From Acanthosoma haemorrhoidale (lineage: Eukaryota; Arthropoda; Insecta; Hemiptera; Acanthosomatidae): a stretch of DNA of 64,000 nt. The DNA lies in assembly GCA_930367205.1 (NCBI GenBank), contig OV884015.1:104038509-104102508 (forward strand), in the 5' to 3' direction. Below the pieces are notes generated by a model. That model saw only the letters and a list, made by a program, of their open reading frames with translations. It ran no database searches and was not told the DNA's origin. The translations under genes were made by a program, and so were the position numbers. Positions 2,072-62,359 of this stretch are shown here, piece by piece (position 1 is the first letter of the stretch; each line of letters opens with the position of its first letter).

Positions 2072-3194
2072 TTTTATTCCTTTATTGTGCAAATATACAA
2101 TCTGCCTTATTGAGCAATAAGTAATTAAGATAAATGCTCTCATTCATGCCATATTTACAATTCATCATTCACTCGCTCATTCATACAGTATTTACAGCCC
2201 AGAGACCTCCCAAATCCATATGTTTGTCACCTCCATCACATACGAAAGAGGAAGTGGAGTCTTGGGAAGTCCCCCACGCTCCTCCGTCAGCCGCGTCACC
2301 GGATACGAGCCAGTGGAGGGTGACCAACAGCGCGAGAGCCACAGACGCTCAGGACATGATTGGAGAACCTGGCCGCTGCCAGGACTCCCACTGTCACGCA
2401 GTTATAGCAGATCACGAGGCCACTGCCGTTTCAGTCTCCAAGGAGGTTTATAGGGATGAGTGGTGCAGTGCAATGACTGTGCTACGGGATTAGGGTGGTT
2501 GGATAGCTTGCTATAGAATTTCATGAACTTGGAAGGGATGAGATTTGAAGAATGTAGGGTATATTAAGATCGTTATGAAGGGTTTTGTTGCTGTAATAAG
2601 GGGTATTTACTATTGCTCTCAGGACTTTTGATTGAAAGGATTGGATACGCTTGATGTTCAACTTTTTGGCTGTCCCACATAGCTCTATTCCGTATGTTCA
2701 GATTGACATAAGTATAACTTTGTAGATTAGTAATTTATTTTCTATTGAGAGATGGGATGTCCTTTGAAGTAGTCTGTACAGTTGTCCAAAGCGTCTGTTT
2801 AGTTCTTGTCTTTTTAGCCTCGTATGTGGGTTCCAGGTCAGTCGTTTGTCGAGATGGAAGCCTAAGTACCGTACTGTCTTGGATACAGGGCGAGGAATGG
2901 AATTAAAATAAACTAGTAGACAGAGGGCAAAGGTAATGTGGGAACATTTTGCTTCATTAACTTTGATTCGACATTGGTTGCACTAATACTCGATCTCATC
3001 AAGGTGTTTTTGAAGGTTTTGGGATGCTATATCAGGGTCTGGATGGGATGACAAGACTGCAGTGTCATCTGCAAATGTGGCCAAGAAGGTATTGGGAGTA
3101 GAGGGGACATCAGTGGTGTATAGGTTATAGAGGATGGGGCCTAGGACACTGCCCTGTGGAACTCCTGCATTTATGGGATAGTAGGTAGAATATA
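2072..3194 (-). mobile_element. Jockey-family LINE, 5'-truncated copy (LINE-J copy A)
   Basis: This is the 3' part of a non-LTR retrotransposon lying in reverse. Minus-strand translation near 2983-3198 gives reverse transcriptase motifs AGVPQGSVLGPILYNLYT and FADDTAVL, nearly identical to the longer copy at 21438-24506. The rest is degraded ORF2 C-terminus and 3' UTR. The 3' terminus is at low coordinates (ATTGTGC...CTGCCTTATT). It is flanked by ACACAGATAATCT at 2059-2071 and 3195-3207, a 13-bp target duplication that fixes both ends. It is non-functional: only the last third of the element is present. Confidence 0.9.
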
Positions 3195-3267
3195 ACACAG
3201 ATAATCTAATGACAATAATCTAATAAGTAAAAGAAAAAATATTAAAAAAAAAAAGAAGAAAACCTAC

Positions 3268-3800
3268 CACCTCTGGCACGAATCACGACCATTAAATGCC
3301 TTGGCATTGATTGGAAAAGGTTTTCAATGAAGTCCTAAGGAATAACGTCCCACTCTTCGGCAACAGCCCTTTCCAATTCGTCAAGGGGTATTCCGACGTC
3401 ATATTCTTCAGTTGCTCTTAGACATATTGAATAGGATTTAAGTCTGGACTCCGTGGTGGCCACACCAACAGCTCAATCCCAACTTCAATCAGGCAATCAT
3501 CAACAATTCCATGCTCTGTGGGGTCTGGTGTTATCATCCATTAGCAAGAATCCCCCGCCGATGTAGGCAATAAGCAAACGGCACTACATGTTCTTCTATT
3601 ATGTCTCTAAGGTACCTCTGAGACGTTATGGATCTTCCCCACACAACAACCTATTCAGTACCAGCTCCAATGAAATACCACCCCATTGAGCCACCACGAA
3701 ATGCCACATGGGGAACCGTACAGCATGGCGCGTACCTCTCTCCTGGCAGTCTCCATATAAAATTACGGCCATCTGAACAACACTTAAGCTAATAGTTAGC
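3268..3800 (-). pseudogene. Tc1-like transposase remnant
   Basis: Minus-strand translation, with frame changes, gives the Tc1 signature pieces in order: SDGRNFIWRLPGERYAP (about 3800-3730), GGSMGWYFIGAG, LMDDNTRPHRA (about 3544-3510), WPPRSPDLNPIQYV (about 3463-3419) and DFIENLFQSMPRHLMVV near 3300. These correspond to the C-terminal catalytic half of a Tc1/mariner DDE transposase, which cuts and pastes the element. Stops and frameshifts break it. The usual glutamate of the SPDLNPIE motif reads as glutamine here, so the catalytic triad is lost as well. I found no terminal inverted repeats, and the N-terminal DNA-binding half is not evident. Confidence 0.85.
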
Positions 3801-3810
3801 TCTTCTTGGC

Positions 3811-4999
3811 CAGTCCCTTGCCATTAGTGCGTGAGGTATCATACTTTGGGATCCTTTTTTGTTCAGAAATAGTATTTTTAACAACTACTCTGAAACCCAA
3901 AAACACTGTCCAAGGTGCTGCTCCCTACCCGAAGAGTTATCGCTTATCCCTCAAACCTGTCTTTATGATGGCCAATAAAGGACCGATCAGAGCCCTTCGA
4001 AACTGAATGCCCCCCCACCCAAAAACACCCAAAAAGGTTAATTAGATGTCAGTTTTTTTGTTAATGACAACCTGCCCCACATGTGCAATATATTACTTAT
4101 ATATATTAAATTCACATGTCGGGGTAGGCCATCATATAACAGTTAATCGTCACACCACTAAGTATACAGATATATAATCCTACCAAATGTATAAATCTTT
4201 ATGGACCGCCACATTTGTACGTAGGTACTTACCTGTTATAATAAGAATAACTTTGAGGTTAATCTGACTTTAAGTACAAAGATTCGTCGGTTTTTAATTA
4301 ATATCTTGACAACCATAGTAATAATGAGTTGAGGTTAGGAAAACATTGTTTATACATCAACGCTAATAAAAATGTCTCGCTCAGTTGTATTTAACGCCGG
4401 ATCTTGTTGTTAGGATTCACTTTGTTTTGTTTTTTCACCGAAGAAGTTCTTTGAAGTATTTACCGTGTTGAAAACTTGTCTTGACTGACTACATATGGTT
4501 AATAGCATAATACTAACTAGCCTAGTTCTAATGATGCGTTTCGTCGAAAGTTGGTTTGTTTCGGGGCTTGCAAAAAGATAAAAAAAAACCCTAAGATCGC
4601 ATTCAAGATGGCTCTACTTGAAGGTCAGATATGATTGCCGCGAAGGATATTCTGCTGTAAGTAGTAAGTAATTAAAGGACACATACAGGTATGATATGAT
4701 AAGGCGTCGCTTATCATTCGTTATCACTTATAGCTAATTAGCCTAATAAGCTGTATTAATGTCATATTTAACCTGTACTTGCATGAACTGGCTAGCACTG
4801 ACCTAAGTGATCTCCAGGGTAAGATGAGACCATTTCATTACCGTACCGCTAATAATTGAATCAATGTCGAAACGGTTGACTTATCAACCATTGAATAGTC
4901 ATAGGTATACATGTTAATATATCCAATCTCGCTGTGGTAAGAAATGCACTAATATCGTTAGCCACTAAGGGTTTAGCCAAAGAGAAGCTTGGGCACTCG
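3811..4999. other. Intergenic DNA without recognised feature
   Basis: AT-rich sequence with short frames only. A short C-rich/A-rich low-complexity stretch lies near 4010-4035. No coding, RNA or repeat signature is convincing. Confidence 0.4.
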
Positions 5000-5078
5000 T
5001 GCAGGCTAGCTCACTTGGGAGAGCCCTCGACTAGAGGTTGGGAAGGCACTGGGTTTTAGCGACCCGATTCATATCCGT
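5000..5078 (+). repeat. tRNA-like sequence (pseudo-tRNA or SINE head)
   Basis: TAGCTCACTTGGGAGAGC at 5007-5024 closely matches an RNA polymerase III A box, and GACCCGATTC near 5061-5070 resembles a degraded B box at about the right distance. I cannot close an acceptor stem, so this looks like a decayed tRNA or tRNA-derived SINE rather than a working tRNA gene. Confidence 0.35.
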
Positions 5079-5296
5079 TTATTTATAACACAATGGCACC
5101 CTACTATCTTTACCATTTATGTTTTGTATAAGTATCTCCTTTCGTTTTATTACATTTCAAACTATCTATACCTTCCAAATTGTAATTCTTTCTAGCATAC
5201 TTATACCATAGATACTATTTGAACTAATAGAAGTGAAAATTGATAAGGGTTACTTATTTTTTGCTCATCAAAACGTATGAAATGTTTTTTTCTTTT

Positions 5297-6028
5297 ATAG
5301 CCCCTTTAAATTTACAGATAATTATAGATCCTCAGGCAAATTAATTTTGTATTTCCTGTAGCATCGCTACATTATATATAGGTTTTGTTATTTTATAATA
5401 ATTATATAATGAATAAACAAGTATAATGATATACATTATACGTGACTGGACTGAACTGACTCTAATAAAGGTGATGGGGCTCACTTTTTTGATCGAACTT
5501 AAAACTAACTTACATACTAATTCATAACCTAATTTTTCCCCGACAGTCTGTTGCCATCGATGTGGCAGAAGGGGTGGTGGGGTCATAGTGTTAAACACTG
5601 GGTTGGTTAGGCGCTGCACGAGTCAAAAAAACTTGATGTGTCTCCGGTGGATGATCTCTCCCACCGACGGCACACCCTTGGTGCAGGTCCGCGTTCTTTA
5701 ACCTCTCGAGAGAGGTTTGTCGGACCACTTTTCGCATAATCCCATTCTGGAAATGTTGGAGACATTTGGCTGTATTGTCAGTCAAGTGGGCGAATAGCGG
5801 GGCACATTTATAGATCATCAGTTTGAGACAAAGCGACAGGTTGGGTGAAGTTAGCAAGTGCGATAGCCGGTAAGACCTGTGTCGTACTTTTTCTATTTTA
5901 TTACTAAAATGAGTAGGGAAATGGAGATGCCTATCCATTTTTATGCCCAGATAGTGCATTGAGAAAGCTGGTGAGTTCTCTTGCCCTCCTATACTACACG
6001 ATTTTGGCAAGGCTTTTTTCCCCTTTTC
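5297..6028 (-). mobile_element. Second LINE family (LINE-2 copy 1), ORF2 C-terminus and 3' UTR
   Basis: Minus-strand translation of 6046-5591 gives GGQENSPAFSMHYLGIKMDR, LSHLLTSPNLSLCLKL and FQNGIMRKVV, matching the better copy at 62360-63395. These residues follow the reverse transcriptase in Jockey-like LINE ORF2 proteins. The 3' UTR runs down to about 5297 and contains the family hairpin (CTGTAGCATCGCTAC, about 5357-5371). Relative to copy 7 a short segment after the YKC motif is missing and frames are broken. It is a 5'-truncated, dead copy whose upstream edge abuts the foldback at 6029-6078. Confidence 0.8.
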
Positions 6029-6078
6029 ATACATCATACATTTCATAAATATGGGTTGTTATGAAATGTATGATGTAT
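6029..6078. repeat. Perfect 20-bp inverted repeat with 10-nt loop
   Basis: The arm 6029-6048 is the exact reverse complement of 6059-6078; the core of each arm is ATGAAATGTATGATGTA or its complement. It lies at the 5' edge of the reversed LINE-2 copy. Confidence 0.9.
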
Positions 6079-6415
6079 TCTCTATAGGTATAGGTAAAGC
6101 GTGTAATTTCTCCAAGGGAGAGAGGACCATTGCTGTATTATCTGTTACTATTTCTACTATTAAAACACTTGACTACTCATAAATACTTATTTCAACGTGA
6201 GTTTGATGTAGCTATGCAAATCAGCTGGGGGCTGGAACGTAACGTTATAACATAATGGTAAAGAGTTCAACAAAACCTTCTTGAGGTGTACTGTATTTTT
6301 ATTACAACCCTGACTGTGGTTATATCTCATTACTTAAAACAATAAATTCACATTATTGAATTAATATGGAAATCTAATGATTAATGTACTAGTTTCGAAA
6401 AGATCCGTTTATTTT
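6079..6415. other. Short intergenic tract
   Basis: No gene is recognised. The segment GCGTGTAATTTCTCC near 6098 loosely resembles plus-oriented LINE-2 sequence seen near 62604, which may reflect an inverted LINE piece. Confidence 0.3.
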
Positions 6416-6679
6416 GTATCTATGTAATTTTACATAGTCTTGAGGACAGTACCCTTGTTGTATCTATGTCATTTTACATAGTCTTGAGGATAGTACCCTT
6501 GTTGCATCTATGTAATTTTACATAGCCTTGAGGACAGTACCCTTGTTGTATCTATGTAATTTTACATAGTCTTGAGGACAGTACCCTTGTTGTATCTATG
6601 TAATTTTACATAGTCTTGAGGATAGTACCCTTGTTGTATCTAGGTAATTTTACATAGTCTTGAGGATAGTACCCTTGTT
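6416..6679. repeat. 44-bp minisatellite, six copies
   Basis: Six head-to-tail 44-bp units start at 6416, 6460, 6504, 6548, 6592 and 6636. Each contains CTATGTAATTTTACATAG or a one-base variant; the main form is an 18-base perfect palindrome. The units also share the segment CTTGAGGACAGTACCCTTG. Units differ by only a few substitutions, so the array is young. It lies about 330 bp before the long exon of the first paralogue, probably in its upstream region or first intron. Confidence 0.95.
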
Positions 6680-7008
6680 GTATCCTGCACAAAATTTATA
6701 ACAACGTAAAAATGTGTAAACTCCAGTGCCATTGGCCAGGTAATGGCTAAGCCATTTCTTTTAAGGGCTGATGTAATGGTATACATGTTATTTACATGAT
6801 CGGTGGTTCGCTATGTATTACACTTGATGCCTAACAATGTCATGACAAATAGAACGGGTTATAGCAACAACTAAATCTCCTTATGATTTTTTTTTTTAAT
6901 TTAAATGGTGTTTGTAAAATTTATACTAGAGCATTAGTGATTGTCATGTATTATGCCTCAGCTCAATATAAAATGGTGATGGTAAAGTGAGCATGGTCGT
7001 TGTTTCAG
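6680..7008 (+). other. Presumed intron or upstream sequence of paralogue 1
   Basis: This AT-rich stretch ends in TTGTTTCAG (7000-7008), a good splice acceptor. I could not find the preceding exon carrying the start codon. Confidence 0.5.
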
Positions 7009-9439
7009 AACATGGATCATTTTCAAGCTTTGCGTTGCCACCATCGTAGCTCACGATTGCAGGATTGAAGACCGAGACACGTTTTTCAGATTTAACGATA
7101 ACGTTAGTGACTTTGTAATAAAAAGTAAGAAAGCCATATCGATATTAAATAAAGACATAAAACGGAGTAATGAGATCCTTGACAAAGTCGCAGCCGATTC
7201 GGAGAGGATAAACCTCCTGAGCGGATTCCAAGACATTGCGATTGAAAACATCGAAAGCCTGTTAGAAAGGGGTATGCTTGACAGATTGGGGAGAGCAAAG
7301 CTGACTGAAGACGATTTAGTGACAATCCCTTGGGGCGATATGCTACAAATAGATGACAGTGTTCTATACAGAGCTGGGCACGGGCGAACGAGGAAGCCTT
7401 TCTTCAGTAAAGCTGTGACTCAAGATTGGCACCAGTACAGTTTTTTGGGTGAGCATGGAACGAAGCATGATCCTTCTATGCCATTGAATAAACAGGTAGT
7501 ATCAACTATGGTTCTTCCAATGCGACATTACAACGGTAATAACAGTATTTGTATCAATTTAGAACCGTTCTGTAAAAGCAATGAAACACAAGATAATACG
7601 AGAAAAACATCAGATGATGTCGGTTTTAGTGCGACCACAGAAACTTCCTCGAAAGGATCACATTCCACCAGGCCTACAACTAAATCTCATGACCTCGTGA
7701 CTTCCGCTGTATCACACTCTCCATCATCAGAACATAAGTCACCTTCATCCGATTCAGATGTGTCTGTCCATTCTCGTAACTCAGGCAACCCGACGTGTCG
7801 TTGGGTGTGTGACAATATAAAGATACTCTCGACTACACAAGGGAATTTTATGGTTCAAGAAGAAGTTTCTGATAAAAATGAAGCTACAACTTGTAGTTGC
7901 CAAAAATCAAAGGAGAAATTGTCTACTGAAGAAGTTGAAACAAAAGATTCCTCGAGTATTTATCCTTCCACCATTTCACCATCGACGACGGCCAAAAAAC
8001 CACACTTGACAAATTCTGAGTTATCACTAGCCGGGTCTGTCACCACCTCGTCCACTACTCACGGCGGTATAAAGTACCCACCTTTGCTAGAAGTAGACAG
8101 CCTAAATGTAGATAAAACAACATCTTCTTTTAACGTAACTGAAATACTCAATGACGGATCTTCAGCTTCTGATGACCCATCTGCAGTTTTAGCGAGAGTA
8201 GTGGCTCGATTACAGTCGAGAACGTGGGAACCACCAGGGATCAGATTCGGATTAAAAGATCTGTTTAATTTAGTATCGAAAAAGAAGGCAGCAGTGATAT
8301 CCTCATCGACTGAAGCGATAAACAGCGAAGAGATCACATTAGCCAATACTTTCAGTATTAAGACAAACTCAGAAGGAGCTGAAATAATATTTTACGCCGG
8401 TTTCAAGAAACGCAATGGAACTACATGCTTCAAGGTAGAAGAAACTACCTCGTCATTCTCCAGTGCCTTATCGTCATTGACAGATGAATCCATTGAGCTC
8501 ATGAGTAACATTATGTCAAGTATGTGCTCATCTGGTAAAACGAAAATAATGGGGAAACAGTCCACTCCAAGAGATTCATCTGACAATACAATGGAACAAA
8601 GTAGTTCAAGCACTGTTACTACCGAAGATAAACCAACGGGTGGCGGCTCAACAAACACTTCACAGTCCAATGTGCAAACGTCAAATGTGGGCACCATGGA
8701 AACAGGAACAGAACTCACAGACAACCAAACTCCATCAAATGAACTCAACCCTAGCTCGGTCACCAAGACAACTAAGTGCAAACCAATAAACCTTATTGAG
8801 ACCAACCCACCTTCTAATAATGAGCTTACGACAAGCTTGGACAACATGACTGCGGAAACACCAACAGGCCCTACAGACAACCAATCTCCAACCAATGAGC
8901 TCACTTCCGGTTCGGCTACCATAAATAAGCCAACGACGACGTGCCAAACGATAAGCCTTGTAGACGAGGCTTCCCCTTCGAGTCTACTAACAACAGAGAG
9001 CAAATCCTCTGCGGAAAGTAAAAGCACAAAGTGTGTCCCAACAACTTGCCCGTCTGTTTCCGGTGCCGCAGATGATTCCTCGACGAAACAATCAACAATC
9101 AATCCCTCACCCCCTAGGCACTTTCTAGATCTATTTATAACACTCCCTGTCTACTATAAAACATTAACGATAACAAAAAAAGAAAGTTTTTTCAACCGAA
9201 TGAACGGGCACATGAAGAAGCACGGGGCTAGAGGTAGTGCGACTACTGAGCCCCGTGGCCTGTGGTCCTTCCTCCAGGCAAAGTCTATGTCCACATCAGG
9301 CGAACAACAAGAGAGAAAGAATAAACCTTTGGAAATATTTATACTTGATCCAGACCTGGCTCTGTGGAGGAATGGTCTCAAATCGATAAAACAACAAAAG
9401 GAATTCGACTCATCAACGACTAGCTATCTGTATAAATAA
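7009..9439 (+). CDS. Unrecognised secreted-type Ser/Thr-rich protein, last exon (paralogue 1)
   Basis: The exon follows the acceptor TTGTTTCAG and stays open for about 809 codons to TAA at 9437-9439. The first base completes a codon, so an upstream exon supplies the start. The first residues (TWIIFKLCVATIVAHDC) look like a signal peptide. Residues about 18-90 are charged and heptad-like (AISILNKDIKRSNEILDKVA, DSERINLLSGFQ), suggesting a coiled coil. Most of the rest is rich in Ser, Thr, Asn and Pro, including a tandem duplication of about 52 residues (TDNQTPSNEL near 8719-8748 and TDNQSPTNEL near 8872-8901). The C-terminus has the motif PLEIFILDPDLALW. The same acceptor phase, N-terminal block and IFILDP motif recur in the next gene, so the two are tandem duplicates. 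I do not recognise the family; a mucin-like, secretory or structural role is only a guess. An ATG at 7274 opens the same frame but would drop the signal peptide. Confidence 0.75.
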
Positions 9440-9477
9440 ATTCCAAAGAGATACTTGCATTATTCCATGAATTTATT

Positions 9478-9483
9478 AATAAA
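9478..9483 (+). promoter_or_regulatory. Polyadenylation signal of paralogue 1
   Basis: AATAAA lies 39 bases after the stop codon of the first paralogue, a suitable distance for 3' end formation. An overlapping AATAAA also follows the stop directly. Confidence 0.5.
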
Positions 9484-9484
9484 A

Positions 9485-10303
9485 GTGAAGCAACAATATA
9501 ACCTATTGGCCCTCTAACCTAGCAATTTCTTCCACTATATCTTTGTCAGGTCTACATTCATCCTTCTCGTATCACGAAAGAACTCCTAGGCTTTTCAATA
9601 AAATACTGAATATTGTTCAACATAATAAGAACATCCAAGTCTTCTGATCTAGCTTTCAGTATGATGCTGCCCAGACTATCATAGCCCAATTCATTTACGA
9701 GTCCAAAATTGTTCAGTTGTTACTTCTTGTCATACCGATCTAACATATAGTCTTAATTCCTTATGAAGTTACTAGTTTAATTTATTTACCCGAAATTTCG
9801 GCTGGAAGTATGGTAGATTTAGCTCAGCAAGGACATCTCATGGGATTGAATGATTCGCCGGTGGTCGTGTCAGACAATGACAACTAACCAGATATTAGCG
9901 GTATCACTTTTTATTATTTTTATTCGTAAAGCGAAGATCCAGGATGTCATAAATTGGCCTTTCATCATCAGCCATGTCATTTACTCTAGTTATTTTTAGG
10001 ATCCAGTATTATTATTTTTAATTTATCTGTAATATATCTCATGAATATCTTTCGTTTACAACATAAATCATCTCCAATTTTACTCCTAACAATAATATTC
10101 AATCATTTATTTAATTAGTACCGGTTTTTTGCCCCATTAACGCACAATCTCCTCCTCACCACGCTGATATACTCCAATTCTGACTTGACAACTGCTATCA
10201 TTGCATTGCTGTCTCAAGCATTGCTATCCTTGGTAGCCTAAATTCGCAAATTTCAGCAATTTTAGCAAATTTCTTCTCCTCCAAAGATTCACAAATTAAA
10301 TAC

Positions 10304-10305
<2 letters not shown>
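9485..10305. other. Tract between the two paralogues
   Basis: AT-rich DNA expected to hold the promoter and first exon of the second paralogue. I could not identify a start-codon exon with a convincing splice donor in the phase required. Confidence 0.35.
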
Positions 10306-10334
<29 letters not shown>

Positions 10335-10510
10335 CTTAGCTCTCAAACTTATAAAATAGGATGTGGGAAAATTATTTTGGGCTAATGAGTGCCTTTCACT
10401 AAGGGGAGTCCCCCATTTGAAGGATGTATAAGAAGGATATAGGGTGGGGTATGCCTAAAGGAGGCGGGTGGAATCAGGAAGGTAGTGAGAGTCTACCGAG
10501 GGTGATTAAA
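10306..10510. repeat. Interspersed repeat R3, copy 1 (T-run head)
   Basis: A long T-run is followed by CTTAGCTCTCAAACTTATAA and by the segments AAGGGGAGTCCCCCATTTGAAGG and GTGAGAGTCTACCGAGGG in diverged form. The same order of motifs recurs at 15380-15570 and 49634-49826. The T-run suggests an element with a poly(A) tail lying in reverse, perhaps a SINE or LINE tail; no coding sequence is seen. Confidence 0.6.
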
Positions 10511-10695
10511 TACAACTTCGAGAAGACCCTGTTCAGAGAAATTTAAATCATTTTAAATATCGAGTAGGTGGTTTCAAAGTGTATAAAAAAACGGCATATT
10601 AATGCATTAAATAAATGTTACATGCTTATCTCTTGCCCATCCAAAAACAATGCTTCTTTCCTTTAATTGTAATTATAAAACGTTTTTTGTTTCAG

Positions 10696-12916
10696 AAACT
10701 ACTTGGTAATTACATTCTGCATGGGATTGTCTGAAAACTTAGATGACTTGAACGAGAAAACTCAGAATTTGAGTACGTTTCTTAAAGAAAGCCGACATGC
10801 ATTATCCATAGTGCAGGGGAACATAAAAAAAAACAAGAAGGTATTAGATCGGCTAGCTCTTGATTCAGAGAGAGAAGACCTTCTAAGGGGGATTCAAGTT
10901 GGGGTATTGGGAGAAATAGGAGAAGAAATTGAAGGAGGTTTTCGTAATAATTTAAACTCATTGCAACTGAACAGTGTAAATGAACAACTAAAGAGAATAG
11001 ACGTCAATGATCAGTATTTGAATAATATACAAACGGACTTTGAGGACATGCAGTCTTTGGACATTCCCAGCATCTCGAGGATTCCTCAAGAGCCAAAAAA
11101 AGAAGAACTCCAACCACTAAGAAGTAAAGCTAAACTCGCTGCTGTCAGGGCTTCTTTAGGAAATGCAATGATCTATGGGAGCACTGGCCCTGATTACAGA
11201 ACAGCAGCTCCTAGTCCAAGAACAGGTGTATTCCACATAAACGATAACATTCTTTGTTTCTCTGTCTGCTGTGGAAATCCTGGTCAGCGCAGAGGAACCA
11301 CTCGTAGACCTATAGTTAACTACGATCCAGTCCTTTACCCACCTGCAATTGCTGCTACCCAGTTTAATCAAACAACTGAAAGAACCACTACAAATGGGTC
11401 AGCTGTAGCTTCGGGTGCCAATGGTCAACATGAACGTCTTAATAAAACAGTAAATATCGAAATTGCATCCACATCACCTAAAGAAATTCCTGCCAATGAT
11501 ACTAATGCAGAATACCCAGTGACTGTTAATAATACAATATATAACAAAAGTGTATTAAAAAATAATAATAAAAATCCATTTATAAAATTGTTTTTCGGCT
11601 CGAAAGACTACAAAGGAGACATCAGCACAACTGATCGAGGAATAACCCCGAAACTGATCACACAAGACAAGGCAGGATCTGTGAGCACTGCAAGTACCAA
11701 CTTCACCAAAGAAGTAGTAACATCGGCTTCAACCCCAACCAGTCTTAATGCGAGCGACACTAACTCTATCGCTTACCCTACAAGCATGTCTCCAGAAACT
11801 GTCAGCCATGTCACAACAACCAGCGCCTCAATAAAAAATAAAGGGAAGGTGTACGTTGCTGCATACCAAACAGTCGGAGCACCTGTCAATAACCAGACAC
11901 TGGATCCACAAGGTCTCATCATATCGCAAACTGGAAATGTAACCCCTATAGACGACACTAGTGTTAGTTTTCCAGGCTTAAGATTAATACTGGCTATTGA
12001 TAAATGCACATCTCCTGCAAGCGCAACCAAAAGGGGCACATACAATCATGATGATACCAGCCGTGATGATGCAGTCTCTAGTACCACTCATTCCTTGTCA
12101 TCCTTTCATCAAAAAACCACTCATGATTTATCATCATCTGGTCGTCCAGAAACTTCCAAAGATTTCTTGCCACCCTGCCGTCCAGAAACATCCAAAGATT
12201 TCTTGCCAATTTGTCGTCCAGAAACATCCAAAGATTTCTTGCCAATTTGTCGTCCAGAAACATCCAAAGATTTCTTGCCACCCTGCCGTCCTGAAACTCC
12301 TAAAGATTTCTTGCCACCCTGTCGTCCAGAAACTTACAAAGATTTCCTGCCAATTTGTCGTCCAGAAACATCCAAAGATTCCTTGCCACCCTGTCGTCCA
12401 GAAACATCCAAAGATTCCTTGCCACCATGTCGTCCAGAATTATCCAAAGATTTCTTACCACCTTGTCGCCAAGAAACATACAAAGATTCTTTGCCACCCT
12501 GTGTCCCAGAAACATACAAAGCTTTCATGCCATTCTATCGCCCAGAAACACCCAAAGATTTCTTGCCAACCAGTAACCCAGAACCGCCTAAATATAGAAT
12601 AGAAGCGAATCAGAGTGACTCGCAAATAAGCACATCGACCAGTGACCAAAACTCGGTAGTCACAACTCCTCTTTCGTCTCTAATAAAGAAGAGTAAGAAC
12701 ATTTTCCTGAGGATATTGAATTATGAGCACTCTACAAATACAAGATGTTCAAGTACAACTCGTGCAACCATCGAGGACAATGCCGGTATTATCAACAACC
12801 GTACTTTAGAAACCCTTGAAGAAGACATGAATGACCCATTTCAAATATTTATTTTAGATCCACAAAACCTTAGAGCAGAGTTTACAAATAAAGGCCTAAT
12901 TCAAACCAAATCATAG
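10696..12916 (+). CDS. Unrecognised secreted-type protein with 12-residue repeats, last exon (paralogue 2)
   Basis: The exon follows the acceptor TTTTTTGTTTCAG and is open for about 739 codons to TAG at 12914-12916. Like paralogue 1 it starts with the last base of a split codon and then a hydrophobic segment (NYLVITFCMGL), a likely signal peptide. Next comes a coiled-coil-like block (ALSIVQGNIKKNKKVLDRLA, DSEREDLLRGIQ) that aligns with AISILNKDIKRSNEILDKVA and DSERINLLSGFQ of paralogue 1. A long Ser/Thr/Asn-rich middle has several N-glycosylation-type sequons. Twelve repeats of RPETSKDFLPPC type follow, then a C-terminal FQIFILDPQNL, matching IFILDP in paralogue 1. The stop is followed at once by a run of about 21 A. 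Function and family are unknown to me. The first ATG in frame (10721) is within the hydrophobic segment, so the true start must be in an upstream exon not found. Confidence 0.75.
12143..12574 (+). repeat. In-frame 36-bp coding repeat, twelve units
   Basis: Twelve contiguous 36-bp units encode variants of RPETSKDFLPPC inside paralogue 2. Early units are nearly identical (PPC or PIC endings); the last three are degenerate (VPETYKAFMPFY, RPETPKDFLPTS). One Cys per unit in ten units could form regularly spaced disulphides. Confidence 0.95.
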
Positions 12917-14234
12917 AAAAAAAAAAAAAAAAAAAATTGTATTCAAGTTCCTAATAACATTTATGCACATACTATATTGGTAGATGAAAAGATCAATGGT
13001 CTATATAGAATAGTTACGTTTTGAGCTCTCAAAAGATGTAGTGATTATTGTAACTGATTAATGATGTCAAAGTTCATGGTTTTAAATCCATAAATAGAAA
13101 GAGGTTTTTTTTTAAAGTGGCTGGTTCCAAATAGAGTACTTCTTACACCTTTCAGCACATATTACGTTATGAAGTAAACAATTAAACTGGAAAAGATGTT
13201 ATTACAAAATAAAATTCAAAGGTAGAAGAAGGTTTCAGTACACCGTGCCTGTTGTCTGCGCAACTAAATGTTTACTACTTTGGTGCTCGTCTAAAATTAT
13301 TTGATTCAATTCGTCCTTTGAAGCTAACAAAACCCCGTGCTACGCTGTATATGATTTGCTTAAGATATAATCTCGTGAAGTAAACCAAAAAAAGAAATAT
13401 ATTTCTCTCAATGTCGCAGCTCAAATTTTATTTAAGGTTTTGACAATTAGATGTAGTCATACAACGTTTGATCAAACGATACAAACTTTGTTTTGAGTGA
13501 TTTGACTTTTTACAAACATACTTACTATTCTATAGTAATTATATATTATAATTATATATATATATATTATATATACAAGCAGTGGTAGTATAGTACTAGC
13601 AATGCGTAACATCGTCCAATTGAAGACGATTAAATAAGGTAACATAAAACCAAATACAGAACTATCACGAAATTTTTTTTGAGAACCACCATAAGTCATC
13701 GCCTATTTATTCTCGTTCAAGTGGTTGTGCGAAAAATAAATGTTGGTCGACATTAGGAAATAGTTTTAAAATCACTTAGTTAAGAAATTAGCCATCTTCC
13801 ATCTAAGTGTCCCCTTCACTGCCTGCCTTTTATTTCTTGAATACTGGTTTCCATGGCTGTTTGTGTTTCCCTTACTTTTTTTTTCTACATAATAAAATGT
13901 AACAAGGTTTCTGCTCGAAGTATTTGTATTATTTATTCCTAATTGACAGTAAAATAATAATCATTTGATTGGCGGATGATATTAGTCTCAGCTAGTTGAA
14001 TTCATTTAAGTGAATCCAAAAAAAACGGTAGTCTCGTCACGGTTTTTTCCGAAACCAAATTACTAGATAGAAGACAATTCTAGTGGCTAGCTTGAAGAGT
14101 TCTTCCTGGGGAGTCTTTTCAACCTTCATTTCCTTTAAAAAAAGGATAATTGCTTGGAGTCTGGTCTACTAGGCCTCTTGAGGATAAATGAGCAGCTACC
14201 TGAATAAAGAAAAAGCAAATTTGGTGGAGAAACC
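12917..14234. other. Intergenic DNA downstream of paralogue 2
   Basis: It starts with an A-run of about 21 bases, contains an AT-only low-complexity tract near 13536-13576, and has no convincing coding or RNA feature. Confidence 0.4.
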
Positions 14235-21430: not shown

Positions 21431-24400
21431 GTTAAGACGCCCCCGCCAGAAGTTTGAGGCCTTCAGTATCTTTTGCTGACGCAGTTCGGAACATAGAGCA
21501 GTCACAGGCATTGCCTACTCCTCCTCCCCAAGTTCTTCTTCCCCAGCACTCCATTCATCTCAGCAACCAGCAAACTCAATCCCATCCTCAACCACACATC
21601 TCGCATATCCCGCCACCTTCAAGCTCTTCAGATCTCACCAGCCTCTTAACCTCATTCCTAACAGAGTTCAGAACCCTAATTACCCCTCTTATTTCCCTTC
21701 TTACAAATCTTGTCTCCTACCTTATCCCCGTTAAACAAAATCCATAAGTGGATCCTTCCGACTCCTTATCCATTCTCCTTTGGAATGCGAATGGTGTTCG
21801 CACCCACACTAACGAACTGACAGCATTACTCCATGACAAAAACATCGATGTAGCTCTTATTACTGAAACAAGACTCACAAGTAAACGATCATTTACCGTT
21901 CGACAGTACCAGACTTATCGAACTGATCACCCAGATGGAAGAGCTCATGCAGGCACCGCTGTCATTGTCCATAACTCCATATCCCATCACATAGTTCCTT
22001 TGGTAGCACATGATTTCCTTCAATCCACTGCAGTGTCAATCACCACCCTCACTTTTCCCCTAACTCTAGCATCAGTGTACTGCCCTCCCAATAAATCCAT
22101 TTCCGATTCCCAATTCATCTCCTTTCTAGACTCCATAGGGCATCGTTTCCTTGTGGGTGGGGACTTTAACGCAAAGCACCAGCACTGGGGCTCAAGATCC
22201 ACAAATACACGAGGACGTGCTTTGCTGTCTGCACTCACACGGAGACATTGCTCCACTATCTCTCCTGACACAGCTACCTATTGGCCATCAGACCCCAACC
22301 GAAATCCAGATCTCCTTGACTTTTTCTTCTGCAATAGTTTAGGAACACTAAACTATTCACTCAAGCGCCTCGATGACCTCTCCTCCGACCATAGTCCCTT
22401 ATTATTAACCATTTCCCTAAATCCAATTCACAAACTGCCTCCTCCTTCATTTATTAGGGGCCCAGTTGACTGGGACCACTTCCGTCAGATTCTTACAGAC
22501 TCTGTAGACCTCAAAGTACCACTGAAAACATCCCAAGACCTAGATGATGCAGTGCATTCCTTCACTACTCTGATCCAGAGGTCGGCCTGGGAGGCATCGT
22601 CACCCCATCGTCACCTAAAAATTCACAATCAAAATCCTTTACCTCAGTATCTCAAAGACCTAATCAAATCCAAACGCCACTCCAGAACAGTGTGGCAAAG
22701 ATCCCGACATCCTGCTGATCGTCGCTCATACAATCAGTACTGCAGGCTTGTAAAGCGGCAATTGGCATCCTTCCGTTCCGATTCTTTCAATTCCTATCTC
22801 TCCTCCCTGTCTACCAGGGACAACTCCCTGTGGAATGTAACTAAGAAAATCCTAAAATATCATCCTGTTTCACACCCACTCCGTCGTGATGACGGGTCCT
22901 GGGCGGCTTCGGATGGGGATAGGTCGGAGGAATTTGCACTGCATCTTTCCCGTACTTTCACTCCTCATCTTACCCCTCAAAACAGTAATCACCGTCCAAC
23001 TGTCGAAGATTTTCTCACTTCCCCTATCCCTCTCTCACTACCACCAAAAGCCGTTAACCCCTCTGAGGTTAAATATCTTCTGAAAAAATTACCTTACCGA
23101 AAATCTCCAGGATATGATCTCCTTACTCCTCGAATCCTCCAACAACTTCCTCTTAAAGCCATAATCTTCTTAACCTATATATATAATTGCATTATCCGAA
23201 CGACGCACTTTCCTCTCCTCTGGAAACATTCCATTATTGTCCTATTCGCCAAACCCGGCAAACCACCCAATGACGCCTCATCTTACCGTCCAATTTGTCT
23301 ACTCCCTATCCTCTCAAAAATTTTTGAAAAACTCCTATTAAAACGCCTACTTCCAATCGTTGAATCCAAAAACCTTTACCCTACTCACCAGTTTGGTTTC
23401 CGCCAACGACATTCCACAGCTCAACAAGGCCTTCGCGTTGTTGATCACATATCCTCAGCCCTTGAAACCAAACAGTATTGCACTGCTGCCTTTCTGGACA
23501 TAGCTCAAGCTTTTGACAGGGTCTGGCACGCGGGTTTGCTTTACAAACTCAAAGGAAATTTACCGCAAACCCTATTCCTAATCCTACAATCCTACCTTTC
23601 AAACCGTTTCTTCCAAGTCCGCTGTGGTTTGGAATATTCTAACTACTATCCCATTAAAGCAGGAGTTCCACAGGGCAGTGTCCTGGGTCCCATCCTCTAT
23701 AATCTATACACTGCTGATGTCCCCTCTACTACCAATACCTTCTTGGCAACATTCGCAGACGACACTGCAGTCCTGTCAACCCATCCAGACCCTGATATAG
23801 CATCCCAAAACCTTCAAAAACACCTTGACGAGATCGAGTATTGGTGCAACCAATGGCTAATCAAAGTCAACGAAGGAAAATGTTCCCACATAACCTTTAC
23901 CCTCTGCCGCAAGTCCTGTCCGCCAGTCTTTTTAAATTCAATTCCTCTCCCTGTGTCTGAGACAGTACGGTATTTAGGCTTCCATCTCGACAAGAGACTG
24001 ACATGGAACCCACACACGAGACTAAAAAGACAAGAACTAAACCGACGCTTTGGACAACTGTACAGACTACTTCGAAGGACATCCCACCTCTCATTGCACT
24101 GCACCACTCATCCCTATAATCCTCCTCGGAGACTTAAACGGCAGTGGCCTCGTGACCTGCTATAAATAAGTGACAGTGGGAGTCCTGGCAATGGCCAGTA
24201 TCTCCAATCATTTCCTGAGCGTCTGTGGCTCTCGCGCTCTTGGTCAGCCTCCGCTGGCTCTTATCCAGTGATGCGGCTGAGGTAGGGGCGTGGGGGACTC
24301 CCCAAGACTCCGCTTCCTCCTTCGCATGCGAGGGAGGTGACAACCATGTGGACTTGGGGGGCCTCTGGGCTGTTTGTAAATATTGTATGAATGAGCGAGT

Positions 24401-27400: not shown

Positions 27401-30400
27401 TAAATAGAAACTTTAGTATCTAGTAATAGAAACTATGTGCTCCGTCTGCCGCCCCTGCGCTTAATAACGGATCAATCACTTCAGCCACTCAGGACTAAGA
27501 CAATGATCTTCATCTCCTGTAGGTATGTGGAAAATATTCTATGTCATATTCGAGTTATTTCAATAAAATAAATAAAACTCACTTTAAATAATGAACAAAA
27601 TGTCCATTAACCGAGTTTTGTATATTGTCTTTCGAAGCCACTCAAATATCTGGAGTATTTGCCTTCAAAATATATATTTTTCATAAAAAGTATTTGAACA
27701 GGTTATCATGTAAGTTAATATGAGTAAGTATGGATTGGTTTGTTATGTTTAATGCCAAAAACATTCTCATATACATGTCCTTATGTGTCAGATCATTGGT
27801 ATTTGCTCTGCCTAGTCGTTTGAAAAATCCTACCAAATCGATATTAACAATCGATAATATTACAGCAGGGACTCTAGCCGGAGGAGAAGAAAACTGCAAA
27901 CTCAGAAACGGAGTTGATAAGATATTTTCTGAAGGGTCGCTGAAGAGTTTCCAACAAGCGGCCATGATCACTTGTCGTGTCCTATCGTCCAATACTTACC
28001 AGTCTCAGCAGATCCAATTTTCCAAGAAGCACCAACCCAGTAAGCAAGTATTTATAATAAGTAAAACTCCTCAAAGATTAGTAAGAATATTTCCAATAAA
28101 GTTACTTATTTTCATTTCTTGCCTTGCACATATTACTCTAATGTATATGCAAATTTAACTACCATCAGTATATCATTATTTGTATAGAAGTATTTTACAA
28201 CATTTTATAACAATTAAATAGTGATAATAAAAATAAATAAACAGAACATTGTTTGCGTTTATAGTATAGTTGATAGAAGATCGCAACATCTGTTGATAAG
28301 TTCTTTTATTTTCCTTTTACATTGGTAGTACATTTTGCCAATTTTTCAAATTCTTTAACGAACCGGGGAGTACCCGGCAGTGGCCGTTACTGTGTCTAGT
28401 ACAATGGTAACATAAAGGACAAAGTTATCAATCCAATCAGTTGATAGCGATACACAAATAGCAATTATCTATTGGTGGCTTCGTAGTTTGAAAAGCTTTG
28501 TTCAGAAGATTGACACTTTGATTAGTTTAAACTTCCATCATTTTAATCAGGATCCATCACTTGATTGACCTCTGAAGGTCTGTGATGGAAGCTTTAATGA
28601 TCTCTCAGAGTCACGTAGGATTAGGCTGTCATCGGCTAACATAGAAAGGGTCGCTATTGGTAAGGGGAGATGGGAGCAGAATAACCTAAATAGTAGAGGG
28701 CTTAAATTTTGCTAAATCGACTGTTTGCTGTAACAAACAACGAGTCAATGCTATAGCATAGTATACAATACTGTAAAATAGGTTATAATAGCCAGAATAT
28801 GCCAGATGGTGCCTAATGTAGATTTTATATCCAGGAAATCTCCATTTGTTGGTCTATGGACAACTTTTGACGTTAAATTGGTTGCGTTGGAATTATGTCC
28901 TTGTTATTCGCCAAACAGCAAATACTACAAATAGTTTTAGGTAAAAGGCACTAAGATATAATAACAGTTGTTCTTTTTGTTTACAGGTCGTAGTATCGCG
29001 TACAAAATGGAACTGTTATGGACTTTAGCCGGACCGAAATTGGGCACTGTCCAACACATATGTCTGAACCCTAGCAACAGTGTAAGTACTCCACAGATTT
29101 ATGGAATGACTGTTGTATCTCAATGTATCATCTTGATTTGTGAAGTATGCGAAATAGGCACAGAAAATGGAAACCCCTTCCTGTCATAATAAAGTTGCTA
29201 TTGTAGAAGAACGCTATTTCTAATAAATTTATCTTTATATTGATTTAGCTGAAACATTTTGTTGTCCTATCCCGTAGAAAGTTATTGGAGTCGGTTACGG
29301 TGAAAGAGAAGGTCCAGGTACCCTGAAGATATGGCACGTCAAAAACCCGGAGACTGCAGAACGAGAGATCTCGACAAAGAGGGCAGTAACTTGCCTTCAG
29401 TTCTCGAAGACTCAACCACGCTTGTTGGCAGCAACTACCAAGGATGGCTCAGTCCTGCTCATCGACATTACCAGCTACTGTACCATCCATTCAGTAGTCA
29501 ATGAGTAAGTTGTACAATGACTAATCAGCTACGTATTATGCAATGACTAACCAGGTACATATTATACAATGACTATCCCTGTACATATTATACAATGACT
29601 AACCAGGTACATATTATACAATGACTAACCAGGTACATATTATACAATGACTATCCCTGTACATATTATACAATGACTATCCCTGTACATATTATACAAT
29701 GACTAACCAGGTACATATTATACAATGACTATCCCTGTACATATTATACAATGACTAACCCGGTACATATTATACAATGACTAACCATGTACATATTATA
29801 CAATGACTAACCAGGTACATATTATACAATGACTATCCCTGTACATATTATACAATGACTAACCAGGTACATATTATACAATGACTATCCCTATACATAT
29901 TATACAATGACTATCCCTGTACATATTATACAATGACTAACCAGGTACATATTATACAATGACTATCCCTGTACATATTATACAATGACTAACCCGGTAC
30001 ATATTATACAATGACTAACCATGTACATATTATACAATGACTATCCCTGTACATATTATACAATGACTAACCCGGTACATATTATACAATGAATAACTAG
30101 GTACATATATGCAATGACTAACCGGGTACATATATACAATGACTATTCATTTACATATTATACAATGACTAACCAGGTACATATTATACAATGACTATCC
30201 CTGTACATATTATACAATGACTAACCCGGTACATATTATACAATGACTAACCAGGTACATATTATACAATGACTATCCCTATACATATTATACAATGACT
30301 ATCCCTGTACATATTATACAATGACTAACCAGGTACATATTATACAATGACTATCCCTGTACATATTATACAATGACTAACCCGGTACATATTATACAAT

Positions 30401-33400
30401 GACTAACCATGTACATATTATACAATGACTATCCCTGTACATATTATACAATGACTAACCCGGTACATATTATACAATGACTAACCATGTACATATTATA
30501 CAATGACTAACCAGGTACATATTATACTTTGACTAACCATGTACATATTATACAATGACTAACCAGGTACATATTATACAATGACTATCCCTGTACATAT
30601 TATACAATGACTAACCCGGTACATATTATACAATGACTATCCCTGTACATATTATACAATGACTAACCAGGTACATATTATACAATGACTACCTCGGCAC
30701 TTATTATACAATGACTAACTAGGTACATATTATACAATGACTAACAGAGTACATATTATAAAATGACTAACAGGGTACATATATACAATGACTAACCAGG
30801 TACATATTATACAATGACTAACCGGGTACATATTATACAATGACTAACTAGGTACATATATACAATGACTATTCATTTACATGTTATACAATGACTATTC
30901 ATTTACATATTATACAATGACTAACCAGGTACATATTATACAATGACAATCCCTGTACATATTATAAAATGACTAACCAGGTACATATTATACAATGACT
31001 ACCTCGGCACTTATTATACAATGACTAACTAGGTACATATTATACAATGACTAACAGAGTACATATTATACAATGACTATTCATTTACATGTTATACAAT
31101 GACTATTCATTTACATATTATACAATGAATAACTAGGTACATATATGCAAGGACTAACCGGGTACATATATACAATGACTAACCAGGTACATATTATACA
31201 ATGACTAACCGGGTACATATTATACAATGACTAACCAGGTACATATTATACAATGACTAACCGGGTACATATTATACAATGAATAACTAGGTACATACAT
31301 GCAATGAATAACCGGGTACATATATACAATGACTATTCATTTACATATTATACAATGACTAACCAGGTACATATTATACAATGACTAACCCGGTACATAT
31401 TATACAATGACTAACCGGGTACATATTATACAATGAATAACTAGGTACATATATGCAATGACTAACCGGGTACATATATACAATGACTATTCATTTACAT
31501 ATTATACAATGACTAACCCGGTACATATTATATGAACCCACAATGTTGCTACTTTATTATTATTTATTATTAAAACATGATGCAATTTGCTAGAGCACTT
31601 CACTTAGTTGATAAGGACTAAAACTGACCTATGTTATCTGTGGCTACAGGGAATATGTGGATAAGACGGATTAACCTCAAAACGCAACAAGTTTGACGAG
31701 CCTTTGTTTGCCAATACAGAAACGAGGATACAAATATTTTATTCACAATTTGATTCATAATTAAATTTGTTGCAAAATTAATATTACATGTTCCGGTATC
31801 CATGCTGTAGATATTGTCCCCTGCACGGTGGCAGTACAGCAGGGCAGACGACTAAATGTCATGACTACGAGTTATAGAGAGAGAGGGGTGAAGTGTAATT
31901 TTGAGTTGAGTATATAGTAAAATTGAGAAATTAAAGAGTTTGTGGAGAAAGAACAATATTTGAAATAAAGGCTTTAAATGTTGTTTATATCGTTTACAGA
32001 GAAACGATATTCATTGGATAAATACCTAGAACAACTGATTATCCAGATAAATAAAGTCATATTATAAATATTTACAAATTACATAATAATAAATAAAAAT
32101 GTTTACAAGTTAATAATACTATTTTTAATATAGTAAAAATATTTAAAACTTAAAAAGTATTTAAGTTAAGGGTAATTTAAGTTAACTTACCACTTAAATT
32201 TATCAGCAGATTTGGGTAGATCATATATGAATGTATTTTTTGAGTGATTGTGTTTTGACATGGCCGGTGTAAACTAATATCCGAATTAGTGTATTTAAAG
32301 AAGCTATTGTTTTTAATGATTTTGAGTGCGTTTAGTCCCTAATAGTGCGAAAAGTATTAATTTTTTTCACACATAATTTTCAACTTCAAAAATATATGTT
32401 TTTAGGCTCACCTATTTGTGCTTAAAAGTGCATAAGTTAGCTCCGGCCATGTTAAAATTGTTATTTTAATTGCTAGTTGGGTAAATATTAAGTAAGGTAT
32501 TACTGGCAGTGATTTGAAAAAACAAGAAAGCCAAAAACCTTTTTTTGTTTTGCTTGCGTGAGTAAGTAATTGTAGAAGATTGTTTAAAATTTATACCAAT
32601 GTTGCATAAATACTGCCATGTAAACAAACGATTGTTTCGTACGAGTTCACAGACGTACCTCTCGTCTTTGGGCTATGATTATTATTTTCGAATTTAAATA
32701 AAAATAACAATTCTATGTTAGCCAATAACTAAGTATAATTAAAAAGAATACATATTGTTATTTTTTTTATTAAATTTTAAATTTAACTTATTATCTGAGG
32801 TTTTAGGTTCTGTTAATAAAGGAATAACTCTGGCAAAAAGAGAAATTTAATATTACAAAAACTTTCTTAAATTAATTATATAAGTACGTATTTACGAATT
32901 TGCTTCCTCTTCTTCTTCAATCAAAATCAATCCTTCTTCTTGGCGTGAAACTTCTCTTCCGTTCTGCTTTAAGCCCAATAACTATTAACTAAAATAATTT
33001 TTTTATTTTTTACTACTCTCAATATCTTTACATAACATGTCTCACGGGCTGATCCAAACTAGAGATACGCTAACGCGGTGTTCCCAGCAGAACAACAACA
33101 GCCATCTTGTTTTTCATAACCTTCACTCCTTTGTTTTGATCGCCTTCTTGATACACGGTTCGATTAAACCTTTTTATTTCAAATTCTTGATAAATAAATT
33201 TTACAATATCAAATATAATACAATATATTATAGAATTACCTTTGACATATTATTGTTCTGACCCGTAGAGAAGAGCTGAGCCCTTATCCGGAGCCTCTGT
33301 GGGCACTGACATGGGTCGTAATGGACGAAGGAGAACGCCTGCTGACGGTGGGAGAGACCGGGCTTCTCTGGATGTGGGACCCTATCAACAAGCAGCACCA

Positions 33401-61187: not shown

Positions 61188-61204
61188 GTTTACCTTTTAC
61201 TAAA

Positions 61205-61541
61205 GTAAACTATGTTGTACAGTAATGATCTCATTCATGAATGAAAGTAAACTATGTTGTACAGTAATGATCTCATTCATGAATGAAAGTAAACTATATT
61301 GTGCAGTAATGATCTCATTCATGAATGAAAGTAAACTATGTTGTACAGTAATGATATCATTCATGAATGAAAGTAAACTATGTTGTACAGTAATGATCTC
61401 ATTCATGAATGAAAGTAAACTATGTTGTGCAGTAATGATCTCATTCATGAATGAAAGTAAACTATGTTGTACAATAATGATCTCATTCATGAATGAAAGT
61501 AAATTATGTTGTACAATAATGATCTCATTCATGAATGAAAG
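61205..61541. repeat. 42-bp minisatellite, eight copies, open on both strands
   Basis: Eight units around GTAAACTATGTTGTACAGTA and ATGATCTCATTCATGAATGA. Since 42 is a multiple of three and the unit lacks stops in one frame per strand, both strands encode 14-residue repeats (MISFMNESKLCCTV forward, MNEIITVQHSLLSF reverse). Each unit contains the palindrome TCATTCATGAATGA. Confidence 0.95.
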
Positions 61542-62359
61542 GAAATGTTCCCTTGTTCATGGAGAACAAGCAAGTCGGCCTAGCACGGACCTCTCACTGC
61601 CTTTATGCCAGATTCTATTATTGTTATTCCAGGTATCTACTCATTCTTTTCGCGATGCCGAGTCTACCCAAGACAGACCCATATCCAACGAAAACATCCT
61701 TAGGGGTGACTGTTGTCCGTGGCTAAAAGTCAACCCAAAACATCTCTATCATTTGTCATTGGTCAAGATGTCTAAGACCTCTTCTGAGAACGTTCTACTG
61801 ATCCGTTGACCCCCAGCTGACTTTAAAACACCTAATGATCTAGGACAATGTCATTTCGTCAATTTAGCACATCTGCATTTGTAAGGGTAGGTAATTTTGA
61901 AATTGAAAGTGTAAATCAAACAACACGTATTTTGGCTAAAATATAATAGAAAACAAAATGTTACGATTCCTCAAGTCTATCAATTAGGGGTTGAGAAAAC
62001 ATTCACTGAGGACTTTAAGAATTTTTTTTTTGTCAATGTTTTAAATATTTAGGTTTTTTTTTTCATACGGTCAAATTTTTCAGACGACGTGACTGATTTT
62101 ACAAATAATATAAAATATTGTTCCTGAAATATACAGAATAGTTTTATTTTTTGTTCAATCATTTAGTTATTAAACTGGTTATTCGTCGCTCCTCAGCCCT
62201 CCAGATCTTTAAATACAGATTTTAGCAATGCCTAACTTCATTTGAGTTTAGTTAACTTACACACACTATATCATCCGTAAGGTAATTTTTTCCTCCCTCT
62301 AATTCAATCTATTTAAGCACACTCTTTATTTTTCATCCAATTTCGTAAATATTGGTTTC
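61542..62359. other. Intergenic DNA without recognised gene
   Basis: A forward frame runs from the minisatellite to 61809 with no recognised domain. The rest is AT-rich. Confidence 0.4.

Follow-up and report, generated by a model that had tools for sequence, protein, structure and literature searches.

A tandem pair of apparently orphan coding exons with conserved ends and divergent middles in the hawthorn shieldbug Acanthosoma haemorrhoidale

Two adjacent plus-strand exons, here called A and B, were analysed in a 64,000-nucleotide stretch (the window) of chromosome 5 of the hawthorn shieldbug Acanthosoma haemorrhoidale (assembly GCA_930367205.1, contig OV884015.1, positions 104,038,509 to 104,102,508 of the forward strand). 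They are a real and intact gene or exon pair, apparently an orphan one and of a familiar kind. The reading that we tentatively prefer, with somewhat less than even confidence, is that A and B are adjacent protein-coding paralogues making secreted, gel-forming proteins. Positions below are those of the window, and residues are counted from the start of each exon.

Coding signal and homology of the two exons

From stop to stop, the plus-strand frames of A and B span 817 codons (6986-9439) and 745 codons (10679-12916), respectively; when the bases of the window were shuffled 20 times and both strands were read, the longest frame had 111-182 codons. The chi-squared value for three-base periodicity was 89 for A and 85 for B, and it was still 82 when the repeats of B were left out; in the control, 49 other, partly overlapping 2217-base stretches of the window, it had a median of 5.6 and peaked at 17. 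The best block aligned between A and B (44 residues) has 21, 9 and 29 mismatches at the first, second and third codon positions, respectively, as expected if selection acts on the protein.

The two exons are related at both ends. Their N-terminal parts align with a local score of 114, which none of 2000 shuffles reached (mean 31, maximum 63), and their C-terminal 90 residues with a score of 54, again reached by none of 2000 shuffles (maximum 46). For the middles the score was 73 with a shuffle mean of 62, and 39 of the 300 shuffles did as well as the real pair. Tandem paralogues with conserved ends and unalignable middles, as proposed in the original prediction from the letters alone, are thus what the scores describe, and the common block that it had named (AISILNKDIKRSNEILDKVA / ALSIVQGNIKKNKKVLDRLA plus DSERxxLLxGxQ) is present in all its parts. 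One detail needs correction: the frames had been said to end in IFILDP, and the motif does occur in both, but a further 28 residues follow it in A and 17 in B.

The middles differ in composition as well. Serine and threonine together make up 26.6% of exon A and 19.9% of exon B; they reach 31.5-33.5% in three segments of A (residues 201-749) and 22.5-25% in three segments of B (residues 201-679), with peaks of 50% and 47.5%, respectively, in 40-residue windows. The Ser/Thr-rich middle that had been predicted is present in both exons, but B is less rich than A and carries a 36-bp tandem array. This array gives the middle of B about 12 copies of a 12-residue repeat and ten cysteines spaced by exactly 12 residues. 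Clear 12-residue repeats occur in B only, the repetition in A being imperfect and judged by eye. In total, there are 14 cysteines in exon A and 16 in exon B.

Table 1. Features of exons A and B in the window
Feature	Position	Strand	Basis or remark
Acceptor of exon A	7000-7008 (7008/7009 boundary, TTGTTTCAG/A)	+	Phase 2
Exon A, terminal coding exon, 809 residues + stop	7009..9439	+	Open frame, periodicity, homology to B
A hydrophobic leader TWIIFKLCVATIVAHDC, putative second half of signal peptide	7010..7060	+	Register match, model, hydrophobicity
A helical block, residues 22-95, with DSERxxLLxGxQ	7073..7294	+	Alignment, model
A Ser/Thr-rich middle, residues about 175-712	7532..9145	+	S+T at least 30% in most 40-residue windows, gap near 388-445
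A conserved C-terminal block with NKPLEIFILDP + 28-residue tail	9170..9439	+	
AATAAA signals	9435 (overlapping A stop), 9478, further one 9597	+	Consensus match only
Acceptor of exon B	10687-10695 (10695/10696 boundary, TTGTTTCAG/A)	+	Phase 2
Exon B, terminal coding exon, 739 residues + stop	10696..12916	+	Open frame, periodicity
B leader NYLVITFCMGLS	10697..10732	+	In-register match with A; short helix then break (model)
B helical block, residues 15-99, with DSERxxLLxGxQ	10739..10993	+	Alignment, model
B 36-bp tandem array, 11.9 copies, unit RPETSKDFLPPC	12141..12568	+	
B conserved C-terminal block with NDPFQIFILDP + 17-residue tail and stop	12683..12916	+	

Splice acceptors, leader and first exon

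Both exons open with a single base that is the last of a codon, i.e., they follow a phase 2 intron, and TTGTTTCAGA and the identical phase are common to the two acceptors. The earlier description of adjacent plus-strand exons beginning at an equal codon position after a TTGTTTCAG acceptor is therefore accurate. Upstream of either acceptor there is no in-frame ATG, and downstream of it methionine first appears at residue 89 of A and at residue 9 of B. A, having no in-frame ATG before its acceptor, therefore needs at least one upstream exon, and the same probably holds for B, provided that its Met 9 is not the start.

The leaders TWIIFKLCVAT (A) and NYLVITFCMGL (B) align only when both start at the acceptor (over 9 residues the score is 16 at offset 0, the next best of the 11 offsets giving 4), and the score over 11 residues was reached by 113 of 20000 shuffles. 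In A, the leader is the most hydrophobic 15-residue window of the exon. Structures were modelled with AlphaFold2 from a two-row alignment (A + B). The best model of A has a helix at residues 2-16, a break and a helix at 22-95 (mean predicted local distance difference test score (pLDDT) 73.5, predicted template modelling score (pTM) 0.36), and that of B has helices at 2-10 and 15-99 (mean pLDDT 76.4, pTM 0.37), so that a long N-terminal helix is predicted in both, whereas the coiled coil of the original prediction is putative. As no convincing exon 1 was found, the signal peptide and secretion are putative as well.

For secreted, gel-forming paralogues, the working might be as follows. A short upstream exon would supply the start codon and the first half of the signal peptide, the second half being encoded at the beginning of each large exon. 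Once the signal peptide is cleaved off, the chains would line up laterally through the long N-terminal helix, and their Ser/Thr-rich middle would be extended and carry O-glycans. The cysteines, ten of which form a ladder of 12-residue steps in B, would cross-link the chains into a gel, glue or sheath, while the IFILDP block may act as a short binding or assembly motif. Secretion, glycosylation, cross-linking and the tissue are here what we infer from the architecture; a role as salivary or egg glue is a guess, with seminal fluid as a possible setting, and the secretory, reproductive or structural role suggested in the original prediction is a reasonable guess.

Several points weigh against this reading, and the first is exon 1. 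No convincing candidate was found in the stretches scanned before A (2501-7005 and 3201-6990) and before B (about 9441-10690), scans that started no further upstream than position 2501 of the window. Several weak candidates lie upstream of A; the one with the top donor score there (2757-2836, score 3.9) was rejected because it falls inside a dispersed repeat, its stretch resembling several other places in the window. A 44-bp tandem repeat (6414-6684, 6.2 copies, 95% matches), which ends 324 bases upstream of exon A, sits in what is presumed to be its intron or promoter. In the 1256 bases from the stop of A to the acceptor of B, no donor scored above 4 and the best in-phase exon with an ATG (10424-10443) had a donor score of 0.8, both by a generic matrix that is uncalibrated on this insect, so a real but weak donor may escape it. 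As the sequence stands, B may have a weak donor, may start at Met 9, or may have in common with A a first exon upstream of A; in the last case, A and B would be alternative terminal exons.

Since no good exon 1 was found between the two, A and B could belong to a single gene, in which one upstream exon is spliced to either of them and one promoter gives two secreted proteins whose ends are related and whose middles differ. We consider this arrangement unlikely, though worth keeping in view. It would account for the TTGTTTCAGA and equal phase at both acceptors, for the weak donors in the interval and for the AATAAA signals that A has of its own (Table 1), but phase is kept by exon duplication and gene duplication alike, the uncalibrated matrix may miss a weak donor, and MYKKDIG-NYLVITFCMGLS would make a passable signal peptide for B.

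The other points against secreted, gel-forming paralogues concern the leader of B, the models and the comparison with known proteins. The leader of B is short and lies outside the six most hydrophobic 15-residue windows of that exon, and with its Met at residue 9, B could start there without a signal peptide. The four models ranked below the best one scored 46-62 for A and 47-55 for B, the helix models were built from two sequences and reach a pTM of 0.36-0.37, and the heptad check had no control. Since proline is low in its middle (4-9%; 6.5-15% in the middle of B), A is no textbook mucin. In the bug Pyrrhocoris apterus, knock-down of eight gelling-saliva genes cut survival in seven cases and left sheath deposition unaltered (PMC12825922), so that orphan proteins of saliva do not have to be structural.

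Some of these points would suit proteins that are not secreted, in which the leader serves as a membrane anchor or forms a buried helix, or in which B begins at Met 9, and which act as intracellular scaffold or structural proteins. With exon 1 unlocated, the leader may lie at any distance from the N terminus, and the short, modestly hydrophobic leader of B with its nearby Met fits such a start; however, both models show a hydrophobic start, a break and a charged helix, and the two leaders match in register. A Ser/Thr-rich, Cys-spaced middle is moreover usual for secreted proteins. On balance, we judge non-secreted products to be unlikely as well.

Searches for relatives and origin of the frames

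No described family had been recognised in the original prediction, and none emerged from Pfam, PDB, a protein database, viral contigs or prokaryote genomes. In Pfam, there was no match for A and there were two far below the cut-off for B; in PDB, there was none for A, and the three for B (E 0.44-0.8) are at chance level. Whole A had no match in the protein database at E up to 10 (the 7983 candidates with the most words in common were scored), and residues 1-130 of B had none either (332 candidates), in a search that needs exact 5-residue words in common and leaves out C-terminal words, so that a fast-changing family can escape it. The control query, the retroelement frame of the window, gave 257 matches, and entries from Ranatra chinensis, Panstrongylus lignarius and Uroleucon formosanum were among the 120 listed; some hemipteran proteins are therefore in this database, although a shieldbug proteome is not demonstrated there. 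With the N-terminal alignment, 209 pattern matches were obtained in viral contigs and 280 in prokaryote genomes, and no relative was confirmed among them. Keyword searches of an open-licence library of papers listed no such protein.

When the 866-Mb genome (865,609,456 bases, 72 contigs) was searched with A, the only query used, it returned A itself, B at E 3.9e-4 and, at E 3.81, one match attributable to chance; the counts, which come from five scored candidates, are lower bounds. As B was reached at only E 3.9e-4, relatives more distant than B would escape. Within the window and the 200 kb upstream, no match other than A and B had an E of 1 or less. When 50 kb downstream were added (314 kb in all), N- and C-terminal profiles run against 7402 frames of at least 25 residues again found only A and B (next E 1.0 and 0.18, respectively), and motifs of the IFILDP and DSER types were confined to these two exons. 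On the strength of these searches, A and B are apparently an orphan pair without a described family.

The 3′ end of B has a peculiarity of its own (window 12887-12936): a run of 20 A directly follows the stop codon, and an AATAAA lies within the coding sequence, 24 bases upstream of these A. With only 15 runs of at least 18 A or T in the 314 kb (8 of A, 7 of T), it is unlikely that one would fall precisely at the stop of B by chance, and this end looks like that of a reverse-transcribed mRNA. A simple retrocopy origin of B was rejected because the acceptor is kept and no target-site duplication of at least 9 bases was found (9440-10760). A more elaborate reading would join the two observations on exon 1 and on the 3′ end: one promoter and one signal-peptide exon would feed two fast-evolving terminal exons, splicing would switch between two forms of a secreted, cross-linking polymer that are alike only at their assembly ends, and a reverse-transcribed copy of the B mRNA would have overwritten the 3′ end of B. 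We regard this combination as distinctly improbable.

That the frames themselves derive from a transposon or a virus is very improbable. Retroelements are abundant around the locus, and the tail of B with its AATAAA is of the kind that reverse transcription leaves; against this, the genome search with A returned only A, B and one chance match (as a lower bound), no Pfam family scored above its cut-off, no viral relative of the N-terminal part was confirmed, and the kept intron acceptor and the lack of a target-site duplication speak the same way. A transposon or viral match of the frames, the outcome that the original prediction had named as telling against it, was thus not seen in Pfam, in the viral contigs or in the genome copy number (of A only). 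Chance open frames or dead copies are hardly credible in view of the frame length, the periodicity and the codon-position bias.

Known systems, surroundings and significance

For the Drosophila salivary glue genes, the comparison was made by architecture and not by sequence. Sgs1, Sgs3, Sgs7, Sgs8 and Eig71Ee have in common a phase 1 intron that interrupts the signal peptide, the largest members carry P/T/S-rich internal repeats, and their cysteines have been suggested to cross-link (PMC6352337). A and B resemble them as tandem paralogues with a signal-peptide intron (putative in A and B), P/T/S-rich repeats (clear ones in B only) and cysteines that may cross-link. Unlike that family, however, they have introns in phase 2, and membership in the Drosophila Sgs glue family was therefore rejected, whereas the likeness of working is retained. 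The word 'coiled' is absent from the main text of the glue-gene paper (PMC6352337), whereas the N-terminal part of A and B is predicted to form a long helix.

A second parallel is offered by the species-restricted gelling-saliva proteins of true bugs such as P. apterus (PMC12825922); their existence makes a salivary role of A and B reasonable, although egg attachment or seminal fluid would be equally possible settings. The likeness lies in a true-bug origin, a restricted distribution and a function that is unknown there too, but the Pyrrhocoris proteins, which were compared by description only, are secreted and of known tissue (PMC12825922). With insect mucins (PMC2515642), A and B share a Ser/Thr-rich, poorly conserved middle, with repeats in B; they differ in the low proline content of A and its lack of a clean tandem repeat, and in the long predicted N-terminal helix.

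The surroundings are rich in repeats. Of 11 other long frames read by eye in the 314 kb, ten looked like retroelement frames or pieces of such frames and one is a satellite. A 54-bp satellite (L026:2275-7309, 93 copies, 98% matches) contains a minus-strand open frame of 1690 residues made of 18-residue units, and a 26-bp satellite of 78 copies lies at 29513-31532 of the window. For the non-LTR (long terminal repeat) retroelement frame at 21748-24165, the closest protein among the matches listed (72%) is filed under Pantoea sp. Taur, an entry that is probably insect DNA within a bacterial assembly. At 61204-61809, the open frame of a 42-bp tandem array matches Pfam Galaxin_repeat slightly above the cut-off (30.3 against 28 bits), a match that is probably spurious and due to the repeat.

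Lineage-restricted secreted proteins with fast-evolving middles are common in insects, and the surprise of finding such genes here is therefore moderate. One signal exon serving two terminal exons would, if true, be more unusual. If confirmed, A and B would represent an undescribed protein family in a true bug, with two conserved ends by which relatives could be sought, and would exemplify paralogues whose ends are retained although the middle is exchanged.

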